Source: a virus
Reading direction: 5' to 3' (one strand)
Virus record (IMG/VR): IMGVR_UViG_3300036770_005281
Location: 1-49,753 of that record
Length of the DNA: 49,753 bases
Shown: positions 36,314 through 39,393 of the stretch, in pieces
How the letters are laid out: every line of letters starts with the position of its first letter
Numbering within the stretch: the first letter of the stretch is position 1
Position numbers and translations under genes: made by a program
The notes under the pieces: model-generated
What the model saw: the letters and a program-made list of their open reading frames with translations, nothing else
The model's database searches: none
Told to the model about the DNA's origin: nothing

Positions 36314-37846
36314 ATGACAGACATCACGCGGTTCAAGGCGATATTCAGCGGACTCGACATCGCTTACGGAACCTACAAGATCGAGGGGTCCAAGGAGAGC
36401 GGCAAGCAGGCCGGCAAAGCAGTCGTAGTGCGCAAGCCTCCGACTGATGACCTGTGGGTCAAACATTTGGAGGGGGTCGACCCGTCGCTCGGAATCATTC
36501 CGATCCGGGCAGACAACTCCTGCATCTGGGGCTGCATCGACATTGACCAGTACCCGCTGGATCACCAGGGGCTGATCAAGCGCATCCGCGAGATGAACTT
36601 GCCGCTGGTGGTGTGCCGCAGCAAGAGCGGCGGGGCGCACGTTTTCCTGTTTGTGAGCGAGCCCACGCCGGCCGCGCACATGCAGCGCTACCTCAAGGCC
36701 TGTGCAGCACTGCTGGGCGAGGCGGGGCGCGAAATTTTCCCCAAACAGGCCGAGATACTGGTCGAGCGGGGCGACACCGGCAACTTCCTGAACCTGCCGT
36801 ACTTCGGCGGCGATCAGACGATGCGCTACGCCATCAAGGACGATGGCACGGCGGCGACGCTGGAGGAGTTCTACGAGCTGCACGCAAAGTGGGTGCAGCC
36901 GCCTGACATCCAGCCCCCGGAAGAGCCCAAGAAACCCGATCACCCCATCAAGGACGGCCCACCATGCCTACAGGCTATCTGCGCTCAAGGCGTCCCCGAG
37001 GGGACACGGAACAACGCCCTCTTCAACATCGGCATCTTCCTCAAGCGGGCCAAGCCCGCAACCTGGGACAACGAGCTGGCCGAGCACAACGTGAAGTACG
37101 TGCAGCCGATGCTCCCCAACAACGAGCTGCAGGTCATCATCAAGCAGCTCCACAAGAAGGACTACAAGTACAAGTGCAAGGACGCACCGTTGAACAGCTT
37201 CTGCAACAGTGGTCTGTGCAGAACCCGCAAGTACGGTATCGGTGCGGACGGCCCTGACGCACCACAACTTTCATCTTTGTCCAAGTACAACAGCGAGCCG
37301 CCGCTGTGGTTCCTGGACATCAACGGCAAGCGCATCGAGCTCGACACCGAGGCGCTGTACAACCAATCGGCCTTCCAGAAGGCCTGTGTCGAGAAGATCA
37401 ACGTGCTGCCCCCGACGCTGCGCAAGCAGGACTGGGAGCAACTCCTCAACGCCCTGCTTCGTGAGATGGTCGAGAGTGAACAGATCACTGAAGCGCCCGA
37501 GGACACCAGCCTGACTGGACGTTTCAATGATCTGGTCGAAGAGTTCACGACCCACATGCAACAGGCCATGGACCGCGATGAGATTCTCATGGGCCGGCCT
37601 TGGGTGAACGAAGACGAGGCCAAGGTCTACTTCCGCATGAAGGACCTCGAAGCCCACCTCACGCGCAACAACTTCAAGGGCATGACGCACCCGAAGATGG
37701 CCCAGCGCATCCGTGAGCTGGGTGGCGAGCCGATCAGCCTGTTCCTGAAGAACCGCACCGCACGCTGCTGGCGCATGCCGATGTTCGGCAAGCAGGATTC
37801 GCCCTTCGACACACCGGAGCAGAAGAAAGCAAGGAGCCCGTTTTGA
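36314..37846 (+). CDS. Primase, archaeo-eukaryotic (AEP) type
   Basis: 510 aa. The AEP catalytic motifs are clear: Asp76-X-Asp78 in GCIDIDQYPLD and the SGGAH motif with His109 in CRSKSGGAHVFLF. A later acidic residue in AEILVERGDTGNFLNLPYFG completes the pocket (inferred). A central Cys-rich segment (CKDAPLNSFCNSGLC) may bind zinc. The C-terminal 150 residues are helical and include GRPWVNEDEAKVYFRMKDL, a fold typical of phage primase tails. The enzyme makes primers for the polymerase encoded 1.5 kb downstream. Ribosome site AGAAAGAAGAAA, one change from the early cassette. Confidence 0.8.
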   Translation: MTDITRFKAIFSGLDIAYGTYKIEGSKESGKQAGKAVVVRKPPTDDLWVKHLEGVDPSLGIIPIRADNSCIWGCIDIDQYPLDHQGLIKRIREMNLPLVVCRSKSGGAHVFLFVSEPTPAAHMQRYLKACAALLGEAGREIFPKQAEILVERGDTGNFLNLPYFGGDQTMRYAIKDDGTAATLEEFYELHAKWVQPPDIQPPEEPKKPDHPIKDGPPCLQAICAQGVPEGTRNNALFNIGIFLKRAKPATWDNELAEHNVKYVQPMLPNNELQVIIKQLHKKDYKYKCKDAPLNSFCNSGLCRTRKYGIGADGPDAPQLSSLSKYNSEPPLWFLDINGKRIELDTEALYNQSAFQKACVEKINVLPPTLRKQDWEQLLNALLREMVESEQITEAPEDTSLTGRFNDLVEEFTTHMQQAMDRDEILMGRPWVNEDEAKVYFRMKDLEAHLTRNNFKGMTHPKMAQRIRELGGEPISLFLKNRTARCWRMPMFGKQDSPFDTPEQKKARSPF

Positions 37847-37860
37847 AAACGGAGATCAAC

Positions 37861-37962
37861 ATGAACACATCTGACAAGGAGATGGGGCCGAAGATCGTAA
37901 AAGTCTTCGGCCCCCCTTAACCGGGCAGTGGCAAAACAACCTTCCTGCTCAACGTCGTCGAG
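37861..37962 (+). pseudogene. 5' part of UvrD-like helicase, split by in-frame TAA
   Basis: ATG 37861 follows a good ribosome site (ACGGAGATCAAC). The frame reads MNTSDKEMGPKIVKVFGPP and stops at TAA 37918-37920. It then continues without a break as PGSGKTTFLLNVVE into the helicase ORF starting at 37963. GPP and GSGKT are the two halves of a Walker A P-loop, separated by six extra bases (TAACCG in this register). The stop is preceded by an 11-bp hairpin. It may be a decayed start, an assembly problem, or a recoding site; see findings. No ribosome site precedes 37963. Confidence 0.6.
37884..37914 (+). other. Perfect 11-bp hairpin at helicase interruption
   Basis: GGGGCCGAAGA (37884-37894) pairs with TCTTCGGCCCC (37904-37914) around a 9-base loop. 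It ends one codon (CCT) before the TAA at 37918. No U-run follows, so it is not a normal terminator. Confidence 0.75.
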
Positions 37963-39393
37963 ATGGAGCTTGCCGACAACGTGCACCCCACCAAGATCGG
38001 CTACTTCTCCTTCACCAAGAAAGCTGCCAACGAGGCGCGCGACCGCGCGGTGGCCAAGTTCCCGCAACTACGCCCCGACAGCGACTTCCCGTGGTTTCGC
38101 ACGCTGCACAGCCTGGCCTACCGGTGCCTGGGCATCGGCACCAAGGACATGATGACGCCGGAGAACTACCGCGAGTTCGCTCAAGAAGCCGGCATCGAGA
38201 TCAACGTCGGCCTGGGCGAGGACGAGTTCATGGTGCAGGCGGACAACCCCATCCTCAACGAGATCAACATCGCACGGATCAAGGGCCTGGACCTGAAGAC
38301 GCACTACAACCAGTCCGTCATGGGCCTGGAGTGGTTTCACTTCGAATACGTGGAGCGCGCCTACCGGCACTACAAGCAGTCACGCAACCTGCTGGACTTC
38401 ACTGACCTGCTGGAGCAAGTGCTCCTGGAGCCGGACCGCCTGCCCCGGCTCGACGTTCTCATCATCGACGAGGCTCAGGACCTCTCGCGTTTGCAATGGA
38501 GGCTGGTTGAGCAGTTGGCACTGCGCTCCCAGCGTTCGTTTTTGGCAGGCGACGACGACCAGGCCGTCTACACCTGGGCAGGAGCCGACGTGGACAGCTT
38601 CCTGAGCTTCGAAGGTGAGATCAAGGTGCTGGACCAGTCCTACCGCGTGCCGGCCAAGGTGCATGCCCTGGCCAACAACGTGGTGCGCCGCATCCGCAAG
38701 CGCCAGCCCAAGGTCTGGAAGGCGCGCGAAGAGACCGGCGTGGTGGAGTACTACAACGATTGGCACCACGTGGACGTCTCGCACGGCGAGTGGCTGGTGC
38801 TCGCTGCGGCCAACTACATGCTCACCGACATGCACGACTGGCTCAAGAGCCAGGGCCTCTTGTTCGAGCGCCACGGCCAACGGTCCGTGCCCGAGGCAGT
38901 GCTCACCGCCGTGCTGGGCTGGGAGCGGCTGCGCAAGGGCGGCGAGGTGCCCTTCGAGGTGGTCAAGACCATCTACAAGTACATGGACACCGACTGCGTC
39001 AAGCACGGCCACAAGGGCCTGAAGACGGCCGACCCAGGGGCCATGTACACCATCGATCTCCTGAAAGAAAAGCACGGTCTTCTTTCCACAGAAATCTGGC
39101 ACGAGGCGCTGACCAAGATCGCCGAGGACAAGCGCAACTACATCATCTCGCTGCTGCGCCGGGGCGTGAAGCTCACGGGCAAGGCCCCGATCAAGCTCTC
39201 CACGATCCACGGAGCCAAGGGCGGCGAGGCCGACAACGTACTGCTGCTGGCGGACCTGACGACCAAGTTCGCCAAGGACTACGAGCGCAACTCCGACGAC
39301 ATCAACCGGCTGCTGTACGTGGGCATCACCCGTGCGAAGCAGTCCCTGCACATCGTGCTTCCCAAGAATGAACAGAAAGGCTTCCGGCTATGA
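37963..39393 (+). CDS. UvrD/Rep-like superfamily I helicase (body, P-loop lies upstream of a stop)
   Basis: 476 aa from ATG 37963. Motifs in order: Ia region GYFSFTKKAANEARDRAV, II VLIIDEAQDL, III AGDDDQAVYTWAGAD, IV LDQSYRVP, V LSTIHGAKGGEADNVLLL and VI LLYVGITRAKQSLHIV. These identify a UvrD/Rep-type helicase moving on single strands. The required Walker A (GSGKTT) is encoded just upstream in the same frame, so this ORF alone would lack ATPase activity. An intact product would start at 37861. Overlaps the polymerase start (ATGA). Confidence 0.8.
   Translation: MELADNVHPTKIGYFSFTKKAANEARDRAVAKFPQLRPDSDFPWFRTLHSLAYRCLGIGTKDMMTPENYREFAQEAGIEINVGLGEDEFMVQADNPILNEINIARIKGLDLKTHYNQSVMGLEWFHFEYVERAYRHYKQSRNLLDFTDLLEQVLLEPDRLPRLDVLIIDEAQDLSRLQWRLVEQLALRSQRSFLAGDDDQAVYTWAGADVDSFLSFEGEIKVLDQSYRVPAKVHALANNVVRRIRKRQPKVWKAREETGVVEYYNDWHHVDVSHGEWLVLAAANYMLTDMHDWLKSQGLLFERHGQRSVPEAVLTAVLGWERLRKGGEVPFEVVKTIYKYMDTDCVKHGHKGLKTADPGAMYTIDLLKEKHGLLSTEIWHEALTKIAEDKRNYIISLLRRGVKLTGKAPIKLSTIHGAKGGEADNVLLLADLTTKFAKDYERNSDDINRLLYVGITRAKQSLHIVLPKNEQKGFRL

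Follow-up and report, generated by a model that had tools for sequence, protein, structure and literature searches.

A stop codon and one further codon split the Walker A motif of a UvrD-like helicase gene in a viral genome, and we consider it very likely that natural programmed short ribosomal bypassing (a 'stop hop') is the best explanation of this arrangement, with no protein evidence as yet. A minimal ribosomal bypass had been proposed in the original prediction. On comparative evidence it is now the best-supported reading, and synthesis of the full-length protein is unproven. All evidence comes from sequence, with no protein, ribosome-profiling or reporter data. The window, i.e. the whole stretch of DNA analysed here, comprises positions 1 to 49,753 (49,753 nucleotides) of IMG/VR record IMGVR_UViG_3300036770_005281.

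Interruption of the helicase P-loop in the window

The features of the locus are as follows.

36314-37846, + strand: upstream neighbour, an AEP/TOTE-type primase gene (Pfam AEP-TOTE, 1.5e-12; PHROG 21866, primase); context, outside the element
37849-37871, + strand: ACGGAGATCAACATGAACACATC, probably left over from the 3' end of an HNH gene since lost, judged by eye from its likeness to HNH 3' ends
37861-37917, + strand: leader reading frame of 19 codons including the take-off codon, MNTSDKEMGPKIVKVFGPP, from reading of the frame
37876-37881, + strand: internal Shine-Dalgarno-like AAGGAG directly 5' of the hairpin; such a motif lies upstream in 35/35 interrupted UvrD copies
37884-37914, + strand: hairpin with its 3' arm in the VFGP codons, ending directly before the take-off codon (sequence, folding, covariation)
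37915-37917, + strand: putative take-off codon CCT (Pro), from the sequence and shared by the copies with a 6-base gap
37918-37920, + strand: in-frame stop TAA with C as the next base, likewise from the sequence and shared by the 6-base-gap copies
37921-37923, + strand: putative landing codon CCG (CYN in 33/33 distinct 6-base-gap copies)
37924-39393, + strand: helicase body from GSGKT (the rest of Walker A) to the stop TGA at 39391-39393 (Pfam, selection)

The frame at 37861-39393 reads ...GGC CCC CCT TAA CCG GGC AGT GGC AAA ACA, and a CGGAG (37850-37854) lies 5' of its ATG at 37861. Coding restarts at GGC 37924 as GSGKTTFLLN... and remains open as far as the TGA. The downstream part is a UvrD/Rep helicase (Pfam UvrD-helicase, 1e-26; UvrD_C, 1.5e-10) whose nearest solved relatives are PcrA and UvrD. 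Without the six extra bases the motif becomes KVFGPPGSGKTTFLLN, identical to that of intact relatives at 97-99% identity, so the surplus in the window is exactly six bases. The claim that a stop sits in the P-loop frame of a UvrD-like helicase with six surplus bases was thus confirmed both by the sequence and by the intact relatives.

Since TAA ends 14 of the 27 main genes of the window and no tRNA gene was found in it, TAA is not reassigned there. A suppressor tRNA was rejected as well, none being present in the window and all three stops being used among the copies described below.

Recurrence and codon rules among UvrD-like helicases

A search with the helicase body, in which the P-loop was not used, found the same interruption in 3 of 80 kept relatives (L007, L014 and L016), all on contigs from other samples than the window. 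When a DNA pattern leaving the six gap bases free was applied, 28 loci were recovered, every one with a stop followed by CCN or CTN. With the valine codon removed from the pattern, further loci appeared, of which only two (L115 and L121) lacked the stop, and these are not helicases. Altogether, with the gap bases unconstrained, 33/33 distinct phage helicases with a 6-base gap carried a stop first and CYN second. Recurring as it does outside the sample of the window, and in 33 distinct copies, the interruption cannot be put down to chance or to assembly error. The latter, listed as an alternative in the original prediction, is ruled out by the independent contigs; they also dispose of one of the outcomes that would have refuted that prediction, namely a unique copy among uninterrupted relatives.

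The stops in the 33 copies were TAA (12), TGA (11) and TAG (10), and the base after the stop was C in all of them. The landing codons were CTG (10), CTA (10), CCA (8), CTT (3), CCT (1) and CCG (1). The predicted landing from Pro codon to Pro codon therefore fits the window, with its CCG, and fails as a general rule: the landing codon need not encode Pro, and CTN is commoner among the copies. What was preserved instead is that one tRNA could read both sites (CCN to CYN, 33/33), with covarying third bases. Among the CTN landings, CTT occurred solely after CCT (3/3) and CTR solely after CCR (20/20), the outcome predicted for a single tRNA reading the two codons. A third-base match of this kind has a chance of 1 in 1771 if the copies are assumed to be independent; many are related, and the counts are not independent events. 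On a CTN codon the Pro anticodon would have to pair with a G.U or a mismatch at the middle position.

Other gap lengths were also observed. UvrD relatives were found with a 7-base gap (TAAT-CCT) and with 8-base gaps (TGATG-CCG and TAATT-TCG). The frame shifts in these, yet a codon resembling the Pro take-off codon directly precedes GGN, so readthrough cannot yield the right frame there. A copy with a gap of 10 bases (L166, ACC to GCC), with its TGA within the loop of GGCACC-TGAA-GGTGCC and an HNH gene just upstream, can be read as another hop case. In one UvrD-type P-loop (L125, 3865-3903) a 13-base gap resembles a partial duplication, and the landing codon ACA breaks the rule.

Among bacterial and archaeal genomes, 13 pattern matches were obtained and none is an interrupted helicase. 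No UvrD version of the interruption was seen in named phages; a relative in phage DSL-LC04, 71% identical, has an intact P-loop.

A conserved hairpin adjoins the putative take-off codon

In the window the hairpin arms are GGGGCCGAAGA (37884-37894) and TCTTCGGCCCC (37904-37914), forming 11 bp, or 12 counting a U.G pair. The 96-nt region folds at -31.6 kcal/mol versus -22.2 +/- 3.1 for shuffles (z -3.05). A stem of 10-19 bp was present in 35/35 interrupted UvrD copies with enough upstream sequence to be examined, and in all 35 its 3' arm ended at most 2 bases from the start of the take-off codon. The hairpin had been described as stopping one codon short of take-off; it in fact adjoins the codon directly. 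The median stem score was 30 in the 35 interrupted copies versus 16 in 57 intact genes.

Alignment of the arms kept 94.5% of pair cells with 22 double changes, and none of 500 shuffles scored as high. As the arms were picked by maximal pairing, which inflates the covariation result, the intact genes are the fairer control, and these scored much lower under the same arm-picking treatment. The Shine-Dalgarno-like motif, counted with a loose motif list, mostly lies directly 5' of the hairpin arm in the interrupted copies.

Association with HNH endonuclease genes and int-alpA RNA

An endonuclease gene of the HNH_3 type (in L007, L014 and others) was found directly upstream of 16/33 interrupted and 0/58 intact UvrD genes (p = 4.5e-9). 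Its end overlaps the start of the leader in L007 and L014. Each of the 20 closest HNH copies stands 5' of an interrupted helicase; more distant copies mostly precede P-loop genes, some interrupted and many intact. At loci L265-L324, distant HNH_3 genes were seen just 5' of other P-loop genes (SF2 helicases and RecA-like proteins), mostly intact.

Just 5' of the HNH gene, an int-alpA-type RNA was found in 16/16 UvrD cassettes tested, and it was absent from the HNH-bearing SNF2 loci tested. This RNA (RF02996; 2409-2474 in both L007 and L014) is filed as a small RNA, and it possibly serves homing endonuclease genes as a leader or regulator.

The window has neither an HNH gene nor an int-alpA RNA. 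Its remnant resembles, as read by eye, the HNH 3' ends ATGGAGACACTCAACATGAACACATC of L007 and ACGGAAAGATTCAACATGAACACAAC of L014, and the best explanation is that the window retained the hop and lost the HNH gene. The endonuclease gene thus travels with the interruption at the family level and is missing from the window itself.

A glycine version in SNF2-like helicases

SNF2-like helicases that read MGLG-TGA-GGT-KT came to light through a distant HNH copy. Searching with a pattern whose middle codon was left free, we obtained 49 matches, of which 46 were helicases, all 46 with MGLG-stop-GKT; the remaining three, without a stop, were other, unrelated proteins. Because the pattern demanded flanking GGN codons, only the stop is an unbiased result there and the landing codon is not. 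The putative take-off and landing codons are here glycine codons (GGN-stop-GGN), with gaps of 4-10 bases; relatives with gaps of 4, 5, 9 and 10 would also have their P-loop restored. Landings are GGN or one mismatch away (AGY, GAC; CGC at gap 6). The frame after the stop is SNF2-related by Pfam and spans 418-470 aa where its end falls inside the locus. No hairpin comparable to the conserved UvrD one is present in the SNF2 copies.

The stop lies directly after the take-off codon in UvrD and SNF2 copies with the exception of L277, whose SNF2-like P-loop (about 2800-2860) has 17 bases between GGC and GGA and no stop. Together with L125, it is an outlier to the hop rule.

Deposited phage genomes are among the interrupted SNF2-like copies, e.g. 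Erysipelothrix phage phi1605. In this genome (L326) and in L328 and L333, the interrupted helicase is annotated from after the P-loop. We also noted a different codon pair, CTG-TGA-CCG, in L320, and a member of another family, MEQG-TAA-GGA-TGKT, in L282. The 10-base gaps of L265 and L273 run from GGC to AGC; pairing of the take-off codon with the landing region is possible there and would resemble a take-off stem-loop. The first glycine codon of MGLG is GGC in 40/49 interrupted versus 0/10 intact SNF2-like copies, possibly reflecting a small stem around the take-off codon.

Selection and phylogeny

The downstream helicases are under purifying selection. Between close pairs of interrupted genes dN/dS was 0.009-0.093 (0.034 for the pair with 7-base gaps), and frames after the stop are open, with 489 codons typical of the main UvrD family. 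Less weight can be put on the value of 0.075 for the window and L007, since the nearest neighbours of each on the tree are intact. The pN just after the stop was 0.20 versus 0.34 in the rest, part of this stretch being fixed by the search pattern. The interrupted state requires at least 10 changes on the tree, six of them forced by well-supported branches, which means that the interruption was gained or lost repeatedly. In one tree group 22/23 rows, found by pattern, are interrupted.

Alternative explanations

Could the stop simply be decoded? Readthrough would give a helicase with two extra P-loop residues (GPP-X-P/L-GSGKT), and it gains some support from the frame being the same on both sides of the stop in the 6-base class, the window included, and from the invariant C after the stop in the 33 copies; a C directly after a stop is a weak termination context. 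It is nevertheless highly unlikely in our judgement: the GxxxxGKT spacing would break, all three stops are in use, gaps of 4, 5, 7, 8 and 10 bases in relatives cannot be put in frame, and neither the Y at the second landing base nor the third-base covariation is predicted. We are a shade more sceptical still of a dead or dying gene, in which insertion scars, perhaps at the HNH cut site, inactivate the helicase, or of an assembly error. The insertions do concentrate at the P-loop, and some gaps resemble short tandem duplications (TTAGG in Erysipelothrix phage phi1605). Scars would, however, rarely place a stop after the same codon, as all in-family pattern matches have it, and decay is at odds with the open downstream frames, the low dN/dS in close interrupted pairs and the large tree group of interrupted genes.

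Re-initiation past the stop, which would yield a shortened helicase lacking the Walker A lysine and make the 19-residue leader a regulatory peptide, commands even less belief. An ATG (37963) does sit 13 codons past the resume codon in the window, and the leader and internal Shine-Dalgarno-like sequence could support coupling; against this, the first possible start position varies and is not conserved, L106 and L114 lack any ATG, GTG or TTG among their first 60 codons, the post-stop codons are under no weaker constraint than the rest, and CYN is left unexplained. An RNA-level or trans mechanism of unknown kind, such as processing that takes out the six bases, we can scarcely credit at all. The int-alpA-type RNA beside the HNH gene makes RNA chemistry conceivable, but the window lacks it and its interrupted gene is still open, the HNH-bearing SNF2 loci tested lack it too, and the gap gave no match to any known RNA family. 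We rejected an intron, or any other Rfam RNA, as occupant of the gap: the only one found was int-alpA, 5' of the HNH gene. Simple frameshifting was likewise rejected, as it would not exactly restore the P-loop in the copies seen.

Proposed mechanism and implications

In the proposed stop hop, ribosomes would read the short leader to CCT, placing the stop in the A site. The peptidyl-tRNA-Pro would then unpair, the mRNA would slide by six bases, and the tRNA would re-pair at the CYN codon after the stop; reading would restart at GGC and give an uninterrupted GPPGSGKT P-loop. The hairpin is inferred to re-form behind the ribosome against the take-off codon, probably pulling the mRNA, and the AAGGAG just 5' of it may help to fix the landing place, a role likewise inferred. 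CTN, AGY and GAC landings would require one mismatched or wobble pair. The efficiency of the inferred hop may be low, as the leader of 19 codons is too short for a nascent-peptide signal of the gene 60 type.

The hop region would form the right-hand part of a mobile cassette comprising the int-alpA-type RNA, the HNH (HNH_3) gene, the hairpin and the interrupted P-loop. The cassette probably shields its carrier from cleavage at the P-loop site, the presumed HNH target, while the helicase is kept working; the HNH part would have been lost in the window. We lean, with little more than even confidence, towards a broader view in which the P-loops of phage helicases repeatedly host selfish cassettes that combine an HNH homing endonuclease with a minimal stop hop as self-immunity, in at least two superfamilies, the hop being stably left after endonuclease loss.

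Should bench work bear them out, the hops proposed here would be the first stop hops known in nature, and they would represent a widespread relative of the T4 gene 60 bypass. Bypassing in bacteria and phages, where efficient, has been studied almost wholly in T4 gene 60. A natural set of short hops varying in gap, codon and hairpin would reveal the minimal needs for leaving and regaining the message, and would open this question to tests in ordinary E. coli reporters. Such a set also suggests that recoding can supply a selfish gene with its immunity function, and that some phage genomes have helicases misannotated as starting after the P-loop, as in Erysipelothrix phage phi1605.

Comparison with known systems

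The open-licence literature, bioRxiv preprints excluded, yielded no description of a stop hop occurring naturally in a phage helicase; an earlier report elsewhere is possible. A 2016 review knew of no natural in-frame stop hop (PMC5009743). Synthetic stop hops have been made in reporters, where a codon, a stop and a matching codon, nine bases in all, yield one amino acid (ref 54 in PMC5009743). The helicase cases share this arrangement; unlike the reporters, they are natural genes and have, in the UvrD set, a conserved hairpin. In mitochondria of the yeast Magnusiomyces capitatus, short blocks are bypassed at 81 sites (PMC5009743). There, too, ribosomes pass non-coding blocks with take-off and landing codons that are not always perfectly matched, but the system is mitochondrial and is described as independent of mRNA context (PMC5009743).

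T4 gene 60 has a stop after take-off, matched codons and a 5' stem-loop motor, and its insert is thought to protect against a homing endonuclease (PMC5009743, PMC11194080). The parallel with gene 60 drawn at the outset holds and extends further, to the HNH endonuclease gene beside many interrupted copies: a stop 3' of take-off, a matched landing, a 5' stem-loop and a linked homing endonuclease are common to both. The endonuclease neighbouring gene 60 is MobE, whereas that of the helicases is HNH_3. The gene 60 nascent-peptide signal, 25-30 residues before take-off, is not matched in the window with its 19-codon leader. From the sequence comparison we would class the helicase cases as programmed bypassing, in an inferred minimal, widespread and new variant: the gap is 4-10 bases (6 in the window) instead of 50, the codons are Pro or Gly codons of the P-loop, the UvrD hairpin adjoins the take-off codon, and the putative hops span many different phages and two helicase superfamilies.
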